Shown piece after piece: positions 1-8,186 of a stretch of DNA of 8,186 nucleotides. Origin of the DNA: Alphaproteobacteria bacterium TMED109 (GTDB taxonomy: Bacteria > Pseudomonadota > Alphaproteobacteria > TMED109); assembly GCA_002171375.1 (NCBI GenBank), contig NHFK01000002.1, forward strand, positions 19,857-28,042. Direction: 5' to 3'. Made by a program: the position numbers and the translations under genes. The notes under the pieces were generated by a model, which saw only the letters and a list, made by a program, of their open reading frames with translations, searched no databases and was not told the DNA's origin. Position 1 is the stretch's first letter. Every line of letters begins with the position of its first letter.

Positions 1-1554
1 TACATCATTAAAGGTATTGCGCCACCAGGTATAAAAGGGTTAATGATAGAATCTTTGATGACATGGAGTCCTGATGAACCTTTTTCTCTATACCCTGGCA
101 TAGCTGAAGCTATAAAAATTCCAGAAGATAGGAAATGGGTAGAATTTAAAATATATGATGAAGCAAAGTTCTCAGATGGAAAATCAATCACTAGTGAAGA
201 TGTAATATTTTCCTGGAAAACTCTGAAAAATTCAGGAAGACCTCATACAAGGTCCTACTATTCTATGGTAAAAGAAGTAAAAGTAATAAACAATAAAAGG
301 GTAAAATTCTTTTTTTCGAATGAAGGTAATTTTGAAATGCCCCTTATTGTGGGTTTGATGCCTGTTTTTCACAGTAAATATTGGAATAATAAAAATTTTA
401 CTAAAACAACCCTTGAGCCTTTTATAAGTTCTGGCCCTTATAAAATAGCTAATATAGAAACAGGAAGATCTATTACATTTATTAAAAATGAAAATTGGTG
501 GAAAATAAATAGTAAAGATAGTTTAGGTAGATATAATTTTAAGAATATAAAGTATGATTTTTACAGAGATCAGAATGTAGCTCTAGAAGCATTTTTATCT
601 GGAGAATTTGATATTAATATTGAAAGCGATGCTGTTAGGTGGGAGAAAGCCTATCATCAAAACTCTCAAAATAAAATTATAAAAAATACTTTCTTAAAAC
701 ACTCTCCATCTGGAATAGAAGCTATAATTTTAAATAGCAGAAAACCTATGCTCCAAGATCGAAATGTAAGAAAAGCAATATCATTATTGTTTCCATATGA
801 ATTTGTAAATAAAATAGTAAACCATGGCTTATTAAAACAAACATTTGGTCCATGGGATAATAGTGAACTATCTGCTAAATCAGACCCAAGTCAAAAGGCA
901 AAAAAAATATTATCTCAATACCAAGATGATATTAGTAAAGATGCATTAAAAAAAATAAATAATTTATCTTACAATGAAAGAAAAACTATAAAACAATCTA
1001 TATCTCTATTGGAAAAATCTGGATGGAAAATAATAGATCAAAAAATGAAAAATATACAATCAGGAAAATCATTAAGCTTTGAGGTAATAACTAATAAATA
1101 TAAAATGGAGAAGTTATTACTAATTTGGAAGGATAAGTTAAGAAAAATAGGAATAGATTTAAAGATTAGAATAATAGATAGTTCTCAATTTCAAAACCGT
1201 ATCCAAACATTTGATTTTGATGCAATAATTTTTGAGTACTACATGTCTTTATCTCCAGGAAATGAACAATCAATATATTGGGGTAGCTGGGCCGCTGACC
1301 AAAATGGCTCAAGAAATTACGCAGGAATAAAGCATAAAGCTATCGACGAAATTATAAAAAAAATAACTAATGCAAAAAATAGAGATAACTTAATTGAATA
1401 CACTAGAATCCTTGATAGACTTCTAAGGTCTGGGAAATGGATGATACCACTTTTTCATGATCCTCTTCATAGAATTGCTCACCAAGCATATATTGCTATA
1501 CCTGATGAAATACCCCTGTATGGATTTAACCCATGGACAGCATGGAAAAAATAA
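1..1554 (+). CDS. YejA-type extracellular solute-binding protein (SBP family 5), 5'-truncated by window edge
   Basis: Periplasmic substrate-binding component of an ABC importer for peptides or related small solutes. The reading frame is open from base 1, so the Met codon at position 43 is internal; 517 residues are visible. Family members are about 600 residues, so the signal peptide and first strand region are missing. Visible family features are the ESLM/DEPFSLY block near the beginning, the FSDGKSITSEDVIFSW block (about visible residues 57-72), the SGPYKI block, an NENWW block, and a C-terminal stretch with GSWAADQNGSRNYAG and PLFHDP. The DEPF and YNFKNIKYDFYRD features point to the YejA subgroup rather than OppA or DppA. 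No permease or ATPase genes follow; a 101-bp gap separates it from the aromatic cluster, so it may be the last gene of an upstream operon. The substrate is unknown; import of an aromatic conjugate is possible but unsupported. Confidence 0.9.
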   Translation, partial: YIIKGIAPPGIKGLMIESLMTWSPDEPFSLYPGIAEAIKIPEDRKWVEFKIYDEAKFSDGKSITSEDVIFSWKTLKNSGRPHTRSYYSMVKEVKVINNKRVKFFFSNEGNFEMPLIVGLMPVFHSKYWNNKNFTKTTLEPFISSGPYKIANIETGRSITFIKNENWWKINSKDSLGRYNFKNIKYDFYRDQNVALEAFLSGEFDINIESDAVRWEKAYHQNSQNKIIKNTFLKHSPSGIEAIILNSRKPMLQDRNVRKAISLLFPYEFVNKIVNHGLLKQTFGPWDNSELSAKSDPSQKAKKILSQYQDDISKDALKKINNLSYNERKTIKQSISLLEKSGWKIIDQKMKNIQSGKSLSFEVITNKYKMEKLLLIWKDKLRKIGIDLKIRIIDSSQFQNRIQTFDFDAIIFEYYMSLSPGNEQSIYWGSWAADQNGSRNYAGIKHKAIDEIIKKITNAKNRDNLIEYTRILDRLLRSGKWMIPLFHDPLHRIAHQAYIAIPDEIPLYGFNPWTAWKK

Positions 1555-1655: not shown

Positions 1656-2684
1656 ATGCCTTTCAAAGTAAAGATATCAGATGGTAACGAAATTTTAGTA
1701 GATGAAGGAAATACTATACTTGAAGCTGCACTAGATCAAGGAATAGACTTTCCTCATGGTTGTAGATCCGGTAATTGCGGAGCATGTAAATCAAAAAAAA
1801 TTTCTGGAGATATTGAAATGTCTCCTTATTCTGAATTTGCGTTGGATGAAGATGAAGAAAAACAAAATTTAATTCTCGCATGTAGGTCAGTTCCTTGGAG
1901 TGATTGCGAGATTAAAATTTTAACAGATGAAGAAGATGATGAAAACAATAATTTAGAAATTAAAAACCTAGAATGTAAGGTTGTTAATTTAAAAAAAGTA
2001 ACAAATGACATATATGTAATGAACTTAAGCATAGATAATAAAGAAGTTTTTAAGTTTAAAGCTGGTCAATATGCCGAATTATATATTGGAAAGTGTAAGG
2101 AAAAGCACTTTTCCATGGCTAGTTCTCCAAATGCTGGTGAATTAGAATTTCATATAAAAACTCTCGATGGAGGAGAAGTAAGCGCTTATGTAAAAAATAA
2201 TTTGAAAATAGGAGAAGCTATAAAAATTAAGGGCCCTTATGGAAATGCACATTTAAGAGAAAAACATAAAGGACCAATAATTGCAGTTGCGGGAGGTACA
2301 GGGTTAGCACCAATACTGTCTATAATTAAATATTCACAAGAAATAGGCTCAAAACAACCAATTAATATTTATTATGGTTCTCAATCTGAAAATGAATTAT
2401 ATTCTATTGAACAATTTGAAGAAATGTCAAAGATTAATGAGAATCTGAAGTTTTATCCTGTAGTAATAGAAAAACCCAAAAATAAAATTTTACGACGAGG
2501 TTTTGTTACAGATGCAGTAATTGAAGATATAAAAGACTTTGACGGATATAAAGCTTATCTTGCTGGTCCTCCAAAAATGGTTGAGGTTGCAGAGGAAATA
2601 TTAATTACTAAAGGAATTAGGAAAGTTGATATTCATTCAGATGCATTTTATACTCCCTATGACGAAATCAAGGAACAAAAATGA
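1656..2684 (+). CDS. 2Fe-2S ferredoxin / FAD / NAD(P)H oxidoreductase, electron-transfer component of an aromatic oxygenase
   Basis: Single-chain reductase passing electrons from NAD(P)H through FAD and a plant-type 2Fe-2S cluster to an oxygenase. Domain order is ferredoxin (about 1-90), FAD-binding barrel (about 104-200), NAD-binding domain (about 205-335). Cluster ligands are C36, C41, C44 (C-x4-C-x2-C) and C76. FAD-side motifs are GQYAEL at 137-142 and FSMAS at 152-156; GPYGNA is at 193-198. The nucleotide loop is GGTGLAP at 213-219, and AGPPKMV lies at 303-309. An acidic linker (DEEDDENNN, 91-99) joins the first two domains. The LREKHKGP block and the DAFY near the C-terminus resemble, from memory, the NahAa/NagAa reductases of naphthalene dioxygenase and salicylate 5-hydroxylase. 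PaaE has the reverse order, flavin domain first. The stop overlaps the SDR start by 4 bp. The likely partner is the diiron subunit two genes downstream. Confidence 0.92.
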   Translation: MPFKVKISDGNEILVDEGNTILEAALDQGIDFPHGCRSGNCGACKSKKISGDIEMSPYSEFALDEDEEKQNLILACRSVPWSDCEIKILTDEEDDENNNLEIKNLECKVVNLKKVTNDIYVMNLSIDNKEVFKFKAGQYAELYIGKCKEKHFSMASSPNAGELEFHIKTLDGGEVSAYVKNNLKIGEAIKIKGPYGNAHLREKHKGPIIAVAGGTGLAPILSIIKYSQEIGSKQPINIYYGSQSENELYSIEQFEEMSKINENLKFYPVVIEKPKNKILRRGFVTDAVIEDIKDFDGYKAYLAGPPKMVEVAEEILITKGIRKVDIHSDAFYTPYDEIKEQK

Positions 2685-3625
2685 CAGATAAAAAGCTTAA
2701 TAATAGAACTGCATTAATTACTGGCGGGGCAAGAGGAATAGGAAAATCTATTGCAGAAAACTTAGCTCAACAAGGTTGTAAAATTGTAATTATTGATCCG
2801 GGTTACAGCATTAAAGGTAACCATGATGACAAAAATTTAGCTGAAAGAGTATCTGAAGAAATAAGTAACAAATATAATGTCGAAACTTTAGCTATTACTA
2901 AAGATATTTCTATAGCAGAAGATGTTAAAAATTCTATTGAAATAGTTATAAAAAAATTCAATAGGATAGACATTGTTGTAAACAATGCTGCAATAATAAG
3001 AGATGGTTTTATCTTTAAATATTCAATAGAAGATTGGAAAAAAGTAATAGATATTAATCTTACAGGGGCATTTAATATTATCTCAGAAACTAGTAGATAT
3101 ATGAAAGAAGTAGTTAAATTAGATAGTAATTATAATTATGGCAGAATTATTAATATTATCTCTACTGCAGGTATTTGGGGTAATTATGGACAAGCCGCAT
3201 ACGCCTCTGCTAAAGCCGGCCTAATAGCTTTAACCAGAGTAACAGCACTAGACTTACAGAGATCAAATATAACATGTAATTCGATTGCTCCCTTTGCAGC
3301 AACTAGAGTAACAGAGTCAATAAAACCGCAAAATGAAGCGCAACAAAAGTATAAAGATTCAGCACTTAAAATTGATTCAAAGTATGTTGGAGAGCTGGTT
3401 TCTTACTTATCATCTAATGATGGAAAAAAATATTCTGGTCAAATATTTGGTGTAAGAGCAAAGGAAGTTTTTTTATTTCAACAATCCCGTCCAGTTTTTA
3501 ATTTTATTCGTAAAGAAGATGACATGTATAGTGATTTAAAAAGAGGCTTTGAAGAGAATTTTGATGAAAATTTAACGTCTTTGGAAACCGATCTAGAAGC
3601 TTTTTCAAATGAACCTATGATTTAA
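2681..3625 (+). CDS. Short-chain dehydrogenase/reductase, MFE-2 (hydroxyacyl-CoA dehydrogenase)-like
   Basis: NAD(P)-dependent SDR of 314 residues, longer than the usual 250. The cofactor motif is TGGARGIG at 14-21, with D39 at the end of the second strand favouring NAD. The NNAA motif is at 101-104, and the catalytic set N126, S161, Y174 and K178 is complete (YASAK). The extended segment after D39, the FGVRAKEVFLFQQSRP region near the C-terminus and the long tail resemble the dehydrogenase domain of peroxisomal multifunctional enzyme type 2 and bacterial relatives, which oxidise 3-hydroxyacyl-CoA. In this cluster an alcohol or dihydrodiol-type CoA ester made by the oxygenase is a plausible substrate, but that is inference. 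AAGGA at 2670-2674, 6 nt before the ATG, is its ribosome binding site and lies inside the reductase gene. The ATGA overlap suggests coupled translation. Confidence 0.88.
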   Translation: MTDKKLNNRTALITGGARGIGKSIAENLAQQGCKIVIIDPGYSIKGNHDDKNLAERVSEEISNKYNVETLAITKDISIAEDVKNSIEIVIKKFNRIDIVVNNAAIIRDGFIFKYSIEDWKKVIDINLTGAFNIISETSRYMKEVVKLDSNYNYGRIINIISTAGIWGNYGQAAYASAKAGLIALTRVTALDLQRSNITCNSIAPFAATRVTESIKPQNEAQQKYKDSALKIDSKYVGELVSYLSSNDGKKYSGQIFGVRAKEVFLFQQSRPVFNFIRKEDDMYSDLKRGFEENFDENLTSLETDLEAFSNEPMI

Positions 3626-3626
3626 T

Positions 3627-3630
3627 GGAG
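3627..3630 (+). promoter_or_regulatory. Ribosome binding site deciding the diiron subunit start
   Basis: GGAG sits 6 nt before the ATG at 3637. The earlier in-frame ATG at 3625, which overlaps the SDR stop as TAATG, has no purine-rich site before it. This favours 3637. Confidence 0.55.
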
Positions 3631-3636
3631 AATATT

Positions 3637-4344
3637 ATGAAATTAGAAAATGAAATCCCTCAAGTAAAAACTTGTGAAGATTTAATTCATTATCCTGAAG
3701 AATATAGAGAGTTATTAGTAAAAATAGTTAGAAGTCACGCCGTGAATGAGCTTTATGGTGCAAGAGTATTTGATGAACCAGCTATAGCATTAGCACCAAA
3801 TCCTTATGCGAAATGGCTAACTTGTAGGGTAGCAATGGAAGAGTATGGTCACCATGTAAGATTTAGAGAACTCGGACAAAAACTAAATATACCTGAAAAT
3901 GAAATGACTCCTGAGGGAAAAAACCCTTTATCTATATTTGAATTTCCACTTGAAACATGGGCAGAATTTTGCGTTATAAAACTACTAGCAGATTTAGCTG
4001 AAATTCTTCAAGTTGAAGACTTACTAGAATGTTCATTTCATCCATTAAAAAGTGTAGCCAGAATGACTATGCCTGAAGAAAAATTTCACGCAAAATTTGG
4101 GGAAGATTTTACAAAGGAATTAATTGCTTCAGAAGATGGTAAAAAAGAAGTACAAGAAGCAATCAACAGATATTACCCAATGCTTCCGGCCTTTTTTGGT
4201 AGAGCAGCATCAAAAAATAACGAATTATATAGAAAATGGGGAATAAAAAAGAGAAAGAATGAAGAAATGTTAGAGGATTATCTAAAATTAACCCATGAAT
4301 TGGTGGTAAATAAATTAAATTTAGAACTTCCTAGCATTAATTAA
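3637..4344 (+). CDS. PaaA-like ferritin-fold diiron oxygenase subunit (phenylacetyl-CoA epoxidase family)
   Basis: Probable catalytic subunit of an aromatic-CoA oxygenase that uses O2 and electrons from the reductase. Numbered from 3637 (235 aa), the carboxylate-bridged diiron ligand pattern is complete: E38 on helix 1, E69-x2-H72 on helix 2, D119 on helix 3 and E148-x2-H151 on helix 4. From memory, E. coli PaaA shows matching local features: a VI-x-x-L-x-D stretch on helix 3, EESFH (here EEKFH) on helix 4, an INRF/INRY segment, and WGIK followed by an Asn-acidic pair near the C-terminus. It is shorter than PaaA (about 309 aa), lacking part of the N-terminal region and C-terminal tail. No PaaB, PaaC or PaaD homologue is adjacent, although PaaA normally needs PaaC as scaffold. 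BoxB, the benzoyl-CoA epoxidase, is much larger. The start at 3625 (239 aa) is an alternative. The substrate is inferred from neighbours to be an aroyl-CoA. Confidence 0.85.
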   Translation: MKLENEIPQVKTCEDLIHYPEEYRELLVKIVRSHAVNELYGARVFDEPAIALAPNPYAKWLTCRVAMEEYGHHVRFRELGQKLNIPENEMTPEGKNPLSIFEFPLETWAEFCVIKLLADLAEILQVEDLLECSFHPLKSVARMTMPEEKFHAKFGEDFTKELIASEDGKKEVQEAINRYYPMLPAFFGRAASKNNELYRKWGIKKRKNEEMLEDYLKLTHELVVNKLNLELPSIN

Positions 4345-4360
4345 ATAATAATATATTCTT

Positions 4361-4388
4361 AGTTTACAAAACTTTAAAGAGGTAAACT
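4361..4388 (+). repeat. Nested inverted repeat over the gentisate dioxygenase ribosome binding site
   Basis: AGTTTAC (4361-4367) and GTAAACT (4382-4388) are perfect 7-bp inverted arms separated by 14 nt. The spacer contains the palindrome CTTTAAAG (4372-4379) and the Shine-Dalgarno AAAGAGG (4376-4382). The right arm ends at the base before the TTG start. In RNA it could occlude the start; in DNA the arms are 21 bp apart centre to centre, about two helical turns, as in operator half-sites. It could also be chance in AT-rich DNA. Confidence 0.4.
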
Positions 4389-5411
4389 TTGAAAAAAAAT
4401 GATTTTTATAAAAATATTAGCGAATTAAACATGGCTCCCTTGTGGGAAGTTTTAGCTAAATTAGTAACTCCTGAACCAAATACTAGAACACACTCACATA
4501 TTTGGTATTGGAAAGATACAAAAAATCGTGTTTTAGACTCAGGTTCAATTATAACTGCAGAGCAAGCTGAAAGAAGAGTGCTTATTTTAGAAAACCCTAA
4601 TATGAGGGGTGAAAGTAAGATTACCGATACACTTTATGCTGGTCTGCAATTAATTCTTCCCGGAGAAGTTGCCCCTAGCCATAGACATACACAATCTGCT
4701 CTTAGATTTGTAATGCATGGAAATGGAGCATATACAGCAGTGGATGGAGAAAAAACTATTATGCGTCCTGGAGATTTTATTATTACACCCTCCTGGACCT
4801 GGCATGATCATGGAAATGAATCTAATGAGCCAATGATATGGCTAGATGGCTTAGATATTCCAATGGTAAATCATTTCTCAGCAAGCTTTTCAGAAAAATT
4901 AAATGAAGATACACAGGAATTAAAAAGGCCAGAAGGTGATTCTCTTGCAAGATATGGTGCTGGGCTTTTACCTGTAGACCATAAACTATTTGATAATCTT
5001 GCTTCCCCTGTCTTTTCTTATCCCTATGATAGAACTAAAGAAGCTCTAGATAAAATGAAAGAATCCAAAGAATGGGATAAATGCCACGGTCTAAGATTAA
5101 AATATGTAAACCCTTCTAATGGAGGACATGCTATTCCTACCATGGCCACATTTATGCAATTAATACCTAAATCATTTTCAGGAAATTCATTTAGAAGTAC
5201 AGACGGAACAATTTATACAGTTGTTGAAGGCCAGGGTAAAACAACAATTAACGATCAAGAATATTTATGGAACAAAGGAGATATTTTTGTAGTACCTCCT
5301 TGGGCAAAAATTAAACACGAAACTATAGATGAATCAGTATTATTTTCTTTTTCAGACAGACCAGTACAAGAATTATTAGGCTTGTTTAGAGAAAAAATAT
5401 ATAAACAATAA
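4389..5411 (+). CDS. Gentisate 1,2-dioxygenase (bicupin, Fe(II)-dependent)
   Basis: Cleaves gentisate (2,5-dihydroxybenzoate) between C1 and C2 with O2 to give maleylpyruvate. The 340 residues match the usual 340-375 and form two cupin domains. The N-terminal cupin (about 85-160) carries the Fe(II) ligands H98 and H100 (PSHRHTQSALRF) and H139 (TWHDHG), with the family RPGDFIITPSWTWHDHG and WLDGLDIP features. The second cupin (about 250-330) shows the TVVEGQGKTTIN and NKGDIFVVPPWAKIKHE features. The start used is TTG at 4389, with AGAGG 6 nt before it; the first in-frame ATG (residue 15, position 4431) has no ribosome binding site, and the residues before it belong to the conserved N-terminus. 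A salicylate or 1-hydroxy-2-naphthoate dioxygenase, both close relatives, cannot be excluded. It ends 8 nt before the next gene. Confidence 0.93.
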   Translation: MKKNDFYKNISELNMAPLWEVLAKLVTPEPNTRTHSHIWYWKDTKNRVLDSGSIITAEQAERRVLILENPNMRGESKITDTLYAGLQLILPGEVAPSHRHTQSALRFVMHGNGAYTAVDGEKTIMRPGDFIITPSWTWHDHGNESNEPMIWLDGLDIPMVNHFSASFSEKLNEDTQELKRPEGDSLARYGAGLLPVDHKLFDNLASPVFSYPYDRTKEALDKMKESKEWDKCHGLRLKYVNPSNGGHAIPTMATFMQLIPKSFSGNSFRSTDGTIYTVVEGQGKTTINDQEYLWNKGDIFVVPPWAKIKHETIDESVLFSFSDRPVQELLGLFREKIYKQ

Positions 5412-5419
5412 AATTTATT

Positions 5420-5968
5420 ATGAGCCTAATATCATTAAATAAAATATCTTCTGTTACTGCTAACATAGTTAAAATTAACTGGTTTAAAAATGTAGGAAAA
5501 GAAATAGATTCCAACCTCTATTCCTTTATTAAAAACTATTGCCAAGAATTAAATATTCATAATGAAATAAAACAAGTAGCTAATTGGGAAGAAGCTATTA
5601 AAGTTATTAATAGTAAAGATTGGAATAAAGAATGTTGGGAGATAGAAGAAAAAGAAAAAGAAAATTTATTAAACATTTTATTAGAGAATGAAGATAAAAA
5701 AAAAGTTTTTTCTTTTTTAAAATCTCTTACTGAAGAATCATCTAAAATAATAGAAACATACTCAATTAAAGATATACATAAAGATAATGTTAAATACCAA
5801 TATTATTCTAAAGTTGCAGCTGGTGCCGCAGCTATATGTTGTTACCAAGCAGCATTAGCCTTTGCTTCCGACCAAAATGATAATCATATTTTCATTTCAA
5901 AATATCATTTATTTAAATCAGGTCATTGGCCATTAATAGTAAAAGATAATGTTTTTAATATATTTTAA
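5420..5968 (+). CDS. Unrecognised 182-aa protein within the gentisate cluster
   Basis: I do not recognise this family. It begins 8 nt after the gentisate dioxygenase stop and ends 19 nt before the ligase, with no clear Shine-Dalgarno, so it may depend on translational coupling. Residues 55-85 are rich in Trp and acid (ANWEEA, a W at 68, CWEIEEKEKE). The middle is charged and helical. Residues 132-149 form a small-residue hydrophobic stretch (VAAGAAAICCYQAALAFA), which could be a buried helix or, less likely, a membrane segment. The C-terminal 25 residues (KYHLFKSGHWPLIV, ending in NVFNIF) look conserved in character, and the protein ends exactly in an aromatic/aliphatic tail. No signal peptide and no ferritin-like EXXH pairs are seen, so it is not an obvious PaaC substitute. 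Codon use is very AT-rich, like the ligase after it. An accessory or structural partner of the oxygenase is only a guess. Confidence 0.75.
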   Translation: MSLISLNKISSVTANIVKINWFKNVGKEIDSNLYSFIKNYCQELNIHNEIKQVANWEEAIKVINSKDWNKECWEIEEKEKENLLNILLENEDKKKVFSFLKSLTEESSKIIETYSIKDIHKDNVKYQYYSKVAAGAAAICCYQAALAFASDQNDNHIFISKYHLFKSGHWPLIVKDNVFNIF

Positions 5969-5987
5969 TTAACGAAATAAAATTGCA

Positions 5988-7511
5988 ATGAACATATTTG
6001 ATAAAATAGAACAAAACGCTTTAAAAAATAATTATATAAACAAGACAGCGATAACTCAGATAATGGACTCTAATAAGATAAAGATAATATCTTATAAAGA
6101 ATTATTTCAGCTAAGTACAAAAGTTAGCCAATTATTACTTAAGTTAAAAATTAAACGCAAAGATAGAATTTATATAAGTAGTAGTGACAGTGTTAACTTT
6201 GTATCTTCTTTTTTAGGAGCAATAAAAGTAGGAATTGTTCCTATTCCTGGTAATCCTGAACTATCTAAAGAACAAACACTACATATACTTAATGACAGCA
6301 AACCTTCAATAATATTAAGCGATAATTCTCTAAATAAAGATAAACTTAAATTTAAATATTCAGTCTATAAAAACAATAAATGGAAAAATCTTTTATCTAA
6401 AATTCATTTAAAAAAAATTAAAACAGTTAACTCTAAAAATAATCAAATTGCTTTTTTAATTTATTCTTCAGGAACCACAGGTTTACCTAAAGCTATAATT
6501 CATCAACATGAGATTATTACTAATACTTATTTTCTTCATAAAGATATTTTAAAATTATGTTATGGGGATAGCATATTTACTACATCTAAATTATTTTTTG
6601 CTTATGCCTTGGGAAATAATTTTTTTGCTCCGTTACTAATAGGGCTTAATACAATTTTTAATGATAATTTATTAAATAATCCAAACCTTTCTTATATAAT
6701 TAAAAAATTTAATCCTAAAGTTATTTTTAGTGTTCCCACTATTTATAGAAGACTTTTAGAGGATAGCAGTACAAATTTAAAAATATTATCTGAAGTACAA
6801 TATTTTATTTCAGCAGGAGAGAGAATACCTGATAAGCTTTATAAAGAATGGAAAAGTAAAGTAAAATCTCCACTCTTAAATTGCTATGGGACTACAGAAA
6901 CGCTTGCTATTGTAATTGCAACCAGACCAGAAAATTCAAAAATAGGTAGCACAGGAGAACCAATTAAAAATGTAAAAACAAAATTAATAAATAGTAATAA
7001 GTTATTATCCAAAACAAATGGTGTTCTTCATATTAAACATTCAACTTTTTCAAATAAATATTTAAATAATAAAAATAAATCTGAAAAAACCTTCCTCGAA
7101 GGATGGATAAAAACTGGAGATATATGGTCAATAAAAAATAATCATTGGTATTACCAGGGTAGAGAAGACGACCTAATAAAAGTAGCTGGTAAATGGGTGA
7201 ATCCTAAAGAAATAGAAAATATAGCATCTAATTTAAATAATGTGCTTGATTCATTTTGTATAGCTTTTAATACCAAACAAGACACTCTAAGACTAGCTTT
7301 GTTTCTACACGTAAATAAAACTACAAATGAAGATTTGATAGTTAGAAAATTAAAAACTAAAATAGCCTCTCTTCCAAATTATAAAAAACCCTATATGATT
7401 AAGCTTATTGATAAATTACCCCAAACTAGCACTGGTAAAATAAAAAGGAATGATTTACACAAATTAATTAAGGATAAATTTGATGAGCCTAGTAAAAGTA
7501 AAACAATATAA
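5988..7511 (+). CDS. Aromatic acid-CoA ligase (benzoate-CoA ligase-like, ANL superfamily)
   Basis: ATP-dependent formation of an aroyl-CoA through an acyl-AMP intermediate; a cytoplasmic enzyme of 507 residues, close to the usual 510-530. The order of ANL motifs is intact: P-loop YSSGTTGLPK at 159-168, YGTTET at 300-305, GDIW at 377-380 with D378 for the ribose, the hinge GREDDLIKVAGKWV at 391-404, and the catalytic lysine K484 in TSTGKIKR. SKLFFAYALGN at 200-210 is a hallmark of the benzoate / hydroxybenzoate / cinnamate-CoA ligase branch, so the substrate is most likely a benzoate-type acid; which one cannot be told by eye. The residue after the P-loop lysine is Ala169, where Gly is usual. 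The ATG at 5988 has no clear Shine-Dalgarno. The gene is more AT-rich than the dioxygenase gene, and its 3' end overlaps the thioesterase by 29 bp. Confidence 0.92.
   Translation: MNIFDKIEQNALKNNYINKTAITQIMDSNKIKIISYKELFQLSTKVSQLLLKLKIKRKDRIYISSSDSVNFVSSFLGAIKVGIVPIPGNPELSKEQTLHILNDSKPSIILSDNSLNKDKLKFKYSVYKNNKWKNLLSKIHLKKIKTVNSKNNQIAFLIYSSGTTGLPKAIIHQHEIITNTYFLHKDILKLCYGDSIFTTSKLFFAYALGNNFFAPLLIGLNTIFNDNLLNNPNLSYIIKKFNPKVIFSVPTIYRRLLEDSSTNLKILSEVQYFISAGERIPDKLYKEWKSKVKSPLLNCYGTTETLAIVIATRPENSKIGSTGEPIKNVKTKLINSNKLLSKTNGVLHIKHSTFSNKYLNNKNKSEKTFLEGWIKTGDIWSIKNNHWYYQGREDDLIKVAGKWVNPKEIENIASNLNNVLDSFCIAFNTKQDTLRLALFLHVNKTTNEDLIVRKLKTKIASLPNYKKPYMIKLIDKLPQTSTGKIKRNDLHKLIKDKFDEPSKSKTI
7470..7474 (+). 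promoter_or_regulatory. Ribosome binding site of the thioesterase gene
   Basis: AAGGA inside the ligase coding sequence lies 8 nt before the ATG at 7483 and 5 nt before an adjacent in-frame TTG at 7480. The ATG is preferred as the stronger start codon. Confidence 0.55.
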
Positions 7512-7923
7512 AATAAAAGTAGAATGGGGCGATTGCGATCCGTATGGAATAGTATTTTATCCTAATTTTTATAAATGGATGGATAGCGCTCAATGGAATT
7601 ATTTTAAAAGTATAAAGCAACCTATTTCTAAATTAGAGGAATTATATAATATAAAGGGATTACCATTACTGCACACTGAAGCAAAATTTCTTTCTGCTTG
7701 TGTTAGAGAAGATATTTTAAATATACAAACTAGTTTGGTTAATATTACCAATTCTACCTTAAAACTTCAGCATATTATTAAAAGAAAAAATAAAATAGTA
7801 TGTGCGGGCTCTGAAATCAGAATATGGGCAGAAGAAAAGAATGGAATAATTAAATCTAAAGCTATTCCTGAAAAGATGAAAAAAGTATTTGAATACTATC
7901 TAATAGAAGAAAAAAAAGTTTAA
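7483..7923 (+). CDS. 4-hydroxybenzoyl-CoA thioesterase-family hotdog thioesterase
   Basis: Hydrolyses an aroyl-CoA to the free acid and CoA. The 146-residue hotdog protein carries the family signature at the N-terminus (EWGDCDPYGIVFYPNFYKW, residues 14-32). D19, the second Asp of GDCD, aligns from memory with the catalytic Asp17 of the Pseudomonas sp. CBS3 4-hydroxybenzoyl-CoA thioesterase, which has a similar GDCDPAGIVWYPN stretch and about 141 residues. In this cluster a gentisyl-CoA thioesterase role is the natural inference, since gentisate dioxygenase needs the free acid; a housekeeping YbgC/Tol-Pal acyl-CoA thioesterase is less likely given the context. The start lies 29 bp inside the ligase gene, implying coupled translation and matched amounts. 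It is the last gene of the cluster and ends 14 nt from a convergent gene. Confidence 0.9.
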   Translation: MSLVKVKQYKIKVEWGDCDPYGIVFYPNFYKWMDSAQWNYFKSIKQPISKLEELYNIKGLPLLHTEAKFLSACVREDILNIQTSLVNITNSTLKLQHIIKRKNKIVCAGSEIRIWAEEKNGIIKSKAIPEKMKKVFEYYLIEEKKV

Positions 7924-7937
7924 ATAATCTGAAATTG

Positions 7938-8186
7938 CTATGATAGGTTTAAAACCTTATATATATAATTAGCAGTAGCTAAATCAGATAAAGCATGTCC
8001 AACTGATTTATATATAGTTACTTTATCTTTTTCATCTCTCTTAAAGTCATTACTCATAATTAATTGCTTAATATCAGCTTTAATATCATTTTTACTTATA
8101 TAGCCTAGCTTTATTGACTGCATTAAATCTCCTGCTTCAATAAGCGCAGCCTCCTTATCATCTACATATATTTCACCTAATGAAAA
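7938..8186 (-). CDS. Ornithine cyclodeaminase / mu-crystallin family protein, C-terminal part, cut by window edge
   Basis: The minus-strand frame stays open from the stop at 7938-7940 to the right window edge, giving the last 82 residues of a protein usually about 310-330 long. The Met codon at 8121-8123 is therefore internal. The visible part begins SLGEIYVDDKEAAL, continues EAGDLMQSIKLG, and has the strongly conserved TIYKSVGHALSDLATANYIY near the end. This matches the C-terminal pattern of the family (VDD...A..EAGDL...TVFKSVG.A..DLA.A). Members are NAD(P)-dependent ornithine cyclodeaminases, ketimine or pyrroline-2-carboxylate reductases, or alanine dehydrogenases; the reaction cannot be told from this fragment. 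It converges on the aromatic cluster with a 14-bp gap and is probably functionally separate. Confidence 0.85.
   Translation of the reverse strand, partial: FSLGEIYVDDKEAALIEAGDLMQSIKLGYISKNDIKADIKQLIMSNDFKRDEKDKVTIYKSVGHALSDLATANYIYKVLNLS

Follow-up and report, generated by a model that had tools for sequence, protein, structure and literature searches.

A putative CoA-dependent route from 4-hydroxybenzoate to gentisate with a PaaA-family diiron protein in Alphaproteobacteria

Lignin-type phenolics yield 4-hydroxybenzoate as a major breakdown product, and genomes able to use it are usually recognised by PobA. A second solution relies on PhgB, which is a flavoprotein. In the PhgABC route, which turns 4-hydroxybenzoate into gentisate (Zhao et al. 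2018), as outlined in the parts of PMC7862547 that deal with it, a coenzyme A (CoA) ester is formed, this ester is hydroxylated while its acyl-CoA group undergoes a 1,2-shift, and the thioester is hydrolyzed. The conversion of 4-hydroxybenzoate to gentisate has also been cited for Bacillus spp. and Haloarcula (PMC10815724). The present work concerns a gene cluster in an 8,186-nucleotide stretch of DNA (G000:C3:19857-28042; the whole stretch is referred to as the window) from Alphaproteobacteria bacterium TMED109, whose genome is a 1.35-Mb draft that is 74% complete. The cluster combines a predicted diiron oxygenase of the PaaA family (PAA) with a gentisate 1,2-dioxygenase (GDO). It is read here, with a confidence that barely passes the even mark, as a pathway in which 4-hydroxybenzoate would be converted to gentisate through CoA esters with the help of the PaaA-family protein.

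Within that outline, the PhgABC route performs the same overall conversion as is proposed for the cluster (CoA ester, 1,2-shift and hydrolysis). The difference is that the cluster has a diiron protein, its own reductase (RED), a short-chain dehydrogenase/reductase (SDR) and a further protein (X) where PhgABC has PhgB. A flavoprotein monooxygenase is absent among the window genes, the part of the genome to which this search was confined. Gene identities were taken from Pfam and NCBIfam profile searches, supplemented by solved-structure relatives for the ligase, the SDR and the thioesterase. The first-pass annotation had described a tight cluster of six genes: ligase, diiron subunit, reductase, SDR, hotdog thioesterase and GDO. 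All six lie within 1656-7923 of the + strand, each is identified by its profile, and their names hold; gene X had been overlooked and the role of the SDR left unexplained. That annotation had also called the route possibly undescribed, and no account of such a route was found in the open-access papers that were searched. Judged from sequence comparison, the cluster is a real, conserved variant of CoA-linked aromatic degradation for which no earlier description was found there.

The central protein is best compared with PaaA of the PaaABCE system. Studies have shown that PaaA positions the ring C1-C2 bond of phenylacetyl-CoA above its iron site, the ligands of which are Glu42, Glu72, His75, Asp126, Glu155 and His158 (PMC4498308). 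PAA (3637..4344, +; the ATG at 3637, with GGAG ahead of it, is preferred over the ATG at 3625) belongs to PF05138 (PaaA_PaaC; 3e-23, 82.8 bits against a cut-off of 28.5). It scores far below the cut-offs of the PaaA equivalog TIGR02156 (85.6 bits against 280) and the BoxB model TIGR03225 (19.7 bits against 499.1), and the PaaC cut-off is likewise far above its score. The closest named record is from an alphaproteobacterial metagenome-assembled genome (L037; 99% identity). The predicted structure, modelled from 16 sequences (pLDDT 93.1), matches PaaA (3pw8_C) with a TM score of 0.90 (1.6 A) at 25% identity. It also matches SSO1313 of Sulfolobus (4mud; TM 0.83-0.84, 21% identity), likewise a short single-domain PaaA-like protein, whose entry names it PaaA-like only. 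The iron-ligand columns are conserved throughout the aligned PAA proteins (E 78/78, E 78/78, H 78/78, D 79/80 with one N, E 80/80 and H 80/80), two rows being gapped at the first three columns. In contrast, the position of Lys68, the lysine bridge of PaaA, holds V in 74 and I in 4 of 78 PAA proteins, compared with K in 7/7 PaaA rows. The 12 PAA rows of a 23-row tree group together as a single clade (100/99), set off by a long branch. On this alignment, tree and model, PAA stands as its own branch next to PaaA, with the same predicted fold and iron ligands and without the lysine bridge; its substrate would also be a CoA ester.

PAA further differs from the PaaABCE system in that its operon is without paaB, paaC and paaD. 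None of these was found among the window genes, and none was recognised by eye in the 45 commonest clusters of 80 related loci. A search for a PaaC partner in G005 (96% complete) and in the window's genome matched only PAA and a BoxB-sized protein, although a diverged PaaC could escape such a search. RED (1656..2684, +) is a [2Fe-2S]-FAD-NAD reductase with Fer2 at residues 10-80, FAD at 107-198 and NAD at 211-313, and is the predicted electron donor of the route. Its ferredoxin domain is N-terminal, the order seen in BenC and MmoC, whereas that of PaaE is C-terminal (PMC4498308). The BoxAB system resembles the cluster in its PaaA-related diiron fold (a weaker match to the PAA model, TM about 0.7) and in its aroyl-CoA chemistry. 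It differs in that PAA is far under the BoxB cut-off and that the window's genome encodes a BoxB elsewhere (G000:C9). Salicylyl-CoA 5-hydroxylase clusters also bring a ligase, a hydroxylase and GDO together at a single locus. In an example from the same class (L171, 7487-12748), GDO is joined by a member of the benzoate-CoA-ligase family that exceeds the TIGR02262 cut-off and by a protein of the salicylyl-CoA 5-hydroxylase type, and the locus is a flavoprotein version of a CoA route. This hydroxylase matches the first half of NF006101 (406 bits, under the cut-off of the fused model) and is a flavoprotein, unlike PAA.

The arrangement recurs in other genomes. One genome per species was scanned with the PAA alignment; 175 of 233 stretches were confirmed, and the best 80 were kept, giving 81 loci with the window. 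Genes were counted from tblastn matches above bit thresholds, at any position in the fetched stretch. The SDR is present in 78 of the 81 loci, RED in 73, X in 72, MarR in 50 and GDO in 48. A ligase is found in 45 (an NDP-forming ligase alpha chain in 39, an AMP ligase in 6) and a hotdog thioesterase in 40 (PaaI-type in 22, 4HBT-type in 18), while FPH occurs in 25 and MPI in 5. Many of the apparent gene losses are due to contig ends. Among the 41 loci with more than 6 kb before and more than 7 kb after PAA, the counts are 40 for SDR, 39 for RED, 38 for X, 30 for any ligase, 29 for MarR, 25 for GDO and 24 for any thioesterase. The first-pass annotation had suggested looking for the same gene order elsewhere. 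The full order, from the solute-binding protein through RED, SDR, PAA, GDO, X and ligase to the thioesterase, is shared by four other genomes from this genus (L031-L034). Shorter sets occur in distant families: RED-SDR-PAA-GDO-X in L025 (PAA 71% identical) and RED-SDR-PAA-GDO in L027 (65%). By these comparisons, the gene order of the cluster is not chance.

The link to gentisate extends beyond the locus. In a class sample of 385 genomes, PAA (E <= 1e-60) is present in 23 and GDO (E <= 1e-100) in 60. GDO is found in 23/23 PAA-positive and 37/362 PAA-negative genomes (Fisher 4e-21); the sampled genomes are related, so that this and the following p-values overstate independence and serve as a guide only. 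The two genes co-occur even when unlinked, as in G093, where they lie 3.5 Mb apart on one contig. In addition, 35 PAA genomes were reached through their loci, 28 of them picked because the fetched locus was without GDO. GDO is present in 32/35 at E <= 1e-20 and in 31/35 at E <= 1e-100, and 25 of the 28 carry it elsewhere. Comparative genomics thus gives good support to a diiron route that reaches gentisate by way of CoA esters. This conserved gene content, together with the complete co-occurrence in the class sample, is what speaks for the earlier proposal of a diiron aroyl-CoA oxygenase that would feed gentisate through a CoA ester.

The clue to the substrate comes from the aromatic enzymes of the 60 GDO genomes of the class sample (23 PAA-positive, 37 PAA-negative). 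PobA was scored with TIGR02360 (E <= 1e-80) and 3-hydroxybenzoate 6-hydroxylase with NF006021 (E <= 1e-100); the protocatechuate dioxygenase PcaH, NF006101 and BoxB were counted when over cut-off. PobA is present in 0/23 PAA-positive and 30/37 PAA-negative genomes (p 1.7e-10). Among the genomes that keep PcaH, it occurs in 0/12 PAA-positive and 24/29 PAA-negative ones; therefore, the first step is missing there and the ring-cleavage gene is retained. Six families of the sample contain both PAA-positive and PAA-negative GDO genomes. In five of them (f67, f82, f93, f102 and f128), every PAA-positive genome is without PobA and every PAA-negative genome has it. The window's own family shows PobA in 0/7 PAA-positive and 6/15 PAA-negative genomes (p 0.12). 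There is no such exclusion of BoxB (22/23 against 30/37) or of the salicylyl-CoA 5-hydroxylase model NF006101 (13/23 against 18/37); proteins of the latter type may also act on anthraniloyl-CoA. Because PobA is nearly excluded and these two are not, 4-hydroxybenzoyl-CoA is the likeliest substrate. The simplest reading of the PobA pattern is that PAA would do the work of PobA on 4-hydroxybenzoate. The open substrate list of the first-pass annotation can be narrowed in this way: 4-hydroxybenzoate is favored, 3-hydroxybenzoate is still possible, benzoate is disfavored by the frequency of BoxB, and salicylate is disfavored less strongly by that of NF006101.

We infer the substrate, the chemistry and every activity of the following route. 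The AMP-forming aroyl-CoA ligase (5988..7511, +) would convert 4-hydroxybenzoate to 4-hydroxybenzoyl-CoA. PAA and RED would then hydroxylate the ring at C1, with movement of the acyl-CoA group to C2. A PaaA-like attack on 4-hydroxybenzoyl-CoA could yield the 1,2-epoxide, which would be opened by the push of the para-hydroxyl, so that a cyclohexadienone bearing the OH on C1 would be left. Migration of CO-SCoA from C1 to C2, followed by enolisation, would result in gentisyl-CoA. The thioesterase (7480..7923, +) would free gentisate, and the ring would be opened by GDO (4389..5411, +; TIGR02272 530.5 bits, above the curated cut-off of 442.1). In the fuller version of this proposal, the stand-alone PaaA-family enzyme would be a 4-hydroxybenzoyl-CoA 1-hydroxylase that drives acyl-CoA migration to gentisyl-CoA. 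It would form a third solution beside PobA and PhgB, widespread in uncultured marine and soil Alphaproteobacteria without PobA, with the MFE-2-like SDR and X in place of PaaB and PaaC. This version is tentative and is held at somewhat below even confidence.

Several observations weigh against 4-hydroxybenzoate as the substrate, or against the proposed chemistry. In family f68, the PAA-negative genomes are also without PobA, and PcaH is itself slightly rarer in PAA-positive genomes (12/23 against 29/37, p 0.047). PobA and PAA are found together in 8 of 46 further PAA-positive genomes (55 reached through their loci, minus 9 that duplicate sample genomes by coordinates). These are G409-G412, G418, G427, G447 and G461, and include several Reyranella and other large genomes. 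3-Hydroxybenzoate 6-hydroxylase is rarer in PAA-positive genomes as well (8/23 against 25/37, p 0.017). The top NCBIfam name of the window ligase is the 3-hydroxybenzoate-CoA ligase HbdA (NF053567, 6.1e-83), which is also the best name for the ligase of L094. These last points would suit the same route with another substrate, either 3-hydroxybenzoyl-CoA hydroxylated at C6 or salicylyl-CoA hydroxylated at C5. Each position is para to the existing OH, and gentisyl-CoA would form without any rearrangement. However, the HbdA score is 279 bits against a cut-off of 1000, and PAA-positive genomes hold the 3-hydroxybenzoate enzyme in 8/23 cases and NF006101 in 13/23, compared with PobA in none. We regard this alternative as improbable, with about one chance in four.

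The SDR (2681..3625, +) is a further difficulty, as it is present in nearly all loci yet superfluous to the chemistry proposed for 4-hydroxybenzoyl-CoA. It is of the MFE-2 (3R)-hydroxyacyl-CoA dehydrogenase type (2et6, 4.3e-65), and S161/Y174/K178 and G15/G19/G21 are invariant in 55 aligned proteins. An enzyme of this type would suit the shifted dienone, a 3-oxoacyl-CoA. It would gain a definite role if benzoyl-CoA were the substrate: PAA would form the 2,3-epoxide as BoxB does, water would attack at C5 (SN2'), and the SDR would oxidize the resulting 2,5-dihydrodiol at its 2-hydroxyl, which lies beta to the thioester, and so aromatize it to gentisyl-CoA. The fold common to BoxB and PAA and the kinship of the window ligase with benzoate-CoA ligases agree with this scheme. 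Yet the step would be redundant in genomes that nearly all encode BoxB, and the PobA pattern would be left unexplained. The benzoyl-CoA scheme is therefore considered unlikely, at roughly one chance in eight.

Also against the proposed route, three of the 35 locus-reached PAA genomes (G418, G422 and G435, all drafts) gave no GDO match, and one genome has a distant GDO only. X also adjoins GDO without PAA in three loci (L153, L165 and L168). It has been considered whether PAA and the SDR work on another CoA ester and are merely co-operonic with gentisate degradation, as loci of the Reyranella type are without GDO next to PAA, and GDO-X and RED-GDO-X exist without PAA. Against this stand the presence of GDO in every PAA-positive genome of the class sample, even when unlinked, and the thioesterase and ligase that often accompany the core. 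Of the alternatives considered, this one is the least credible, at below one chance in ten.

The window ligase scores 272 bits with TIGR02262 (8.6e-81; cut-off 375) and matches the benzoate-CoA ligase 2v7b (3.6e-51), which places it in the benzoate-CoA ligase group. The thioesterase is a hotdog protein (4HBT_2; 5wh9 1.2e-19, 1bvq 2.3e-15) that shares a DCDPxGIVxYPN stretch with the CBS3-type 4-hydroxybenzoyl-CoA thioesterase 1bvq. It is closest to 4-hydroxybenzoyl-CoA thioesterases, which fits a 4-hydroxybenzoate substrate and is not decisive. The commonest ligase of the loci is of the acetate-CoA-ligase-alpha, NDP-forming type (TIGR02717 353 and 366 bits in two examples, cut-off 567). Proteins of this kind, with CoA-binding and Succ_CoA_lig domains (two scanned) and an HTG motif seen by eye, are located at 12411-13811 of L058 and in 38 further loci. 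The chain may act as the working ligase, a suggestion weakened by the lack of an ATP-grasp domain in both of the scanned examples, although no search for a partner chain was made. Away from the cluster, contig G000:C15 of the window's genome carries an FAH-family (fumarylpyruvate-hydrolase-type) gene, the product of which is 58% identical to its counterpart in the Iodidimonas cluster. It is directly followed by a MaiA-type isomerase gene (TIGR01262 260 bits, cut-off 171). This pair would complete the gentisate pathway.

X (5420..5968, +) is a conserved helical protein of 182 amino acids, outside named families. It has no Pfam or NCBIfam match; its model is mainly helical (pLDDT 91.6), and fold searches with this model returned no nameable relative. 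X accompanies PAA where GDO is located elsewhere, and it accompanies GDO where there is no PAA; therefore, X belongs to the gentisate route more widely. From this distribution, X is a family of its own that is tied to gentisate degradation. The X-GDO pairs of L153 (6599-8292), L165 (7075-9214) and L168 (7119-8836) belong to PobA-positive genomes, and the stretches fetched around them show no match to PAA, RED or SDR. L162 and L167 show the order MarR-RED-GDO-X-FPH without PAA, and L154 shows RED, a shortened SDR, GDO and X, also without PAA.

If the proposed route is correct, many alphaproteobacterial genomes that lack PobA would own a different, CoA-based and oxygen-dependent route for 4-hydroxybenzoate. 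The chemistry of diiron aroyl-CoA enzymes would widen beyond epoxidation to include hydroxylation coupled to migration of a carbon group, and a single small diiron subunit would take the place of a multi-subunit complex. Many PAA-type proteins carry the source name "ring-1,2-phenylacetyl-CoA epoxidase subunit PaaA", which would then be misleading. The cluster occurs in marine and soil bacteria, and cultured organisms with a PAA locus include Iodidimonas muriae (L074), alpha proteobacterium Q-1 (L062), Desertibaculum subflavum (L063), Reyranella soli (L104), Enhydrobacter aerosaccus (L086), Vineibacter terrae (L112) and Reyranella sp. CPCC 100927 (L108). The genomes of I. muriae, D. subflavum, strain Q-1 and E. 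aerosaccus are PobA-negative and carry both PAA and GDO, which makes the route directly testable.

Other genes surround these loci. Beside the cluster in L074 (2359-7558) and L062 (2293-7576) are a TPP enzyme (PRK08327 model in L074), a second benzoate-CoA-ligase-like protein and an OsmC-like protein. L169 (G322, 6119-12467), from a PobA-positive genome, resembles PAA loci in its thioesterase, TRAP transporter, GDO and NDP-forming ligase, but has no RED, SDR, PAA or X match. L035 (G034:C490, approximately 2000-13400) is a diiron locus of another kind. It encodes two PaaA-like proteins (30% identical to PAA) interspersed with phenylacetate-CoA-ligase-like and enoyl-CoA-hydratase-like proteins, both of which were named by eye. 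A gene upstream looks by eye like a kynureninase, and the locus may represent a diiron anthraniloyl-CoA route. In the window itself, a family-5 solute-binding protein gene (SBP_bac_5; 1..1554, +; PF00496 1.5e-59), the 5' end of which is outside the window, precedes the cluster. It is found in the same place in near relatives, in 7 loci counting the window. On the 3' side, an ornithine cyclodeaminase-type gene (7938-8186) converges on the cluster.

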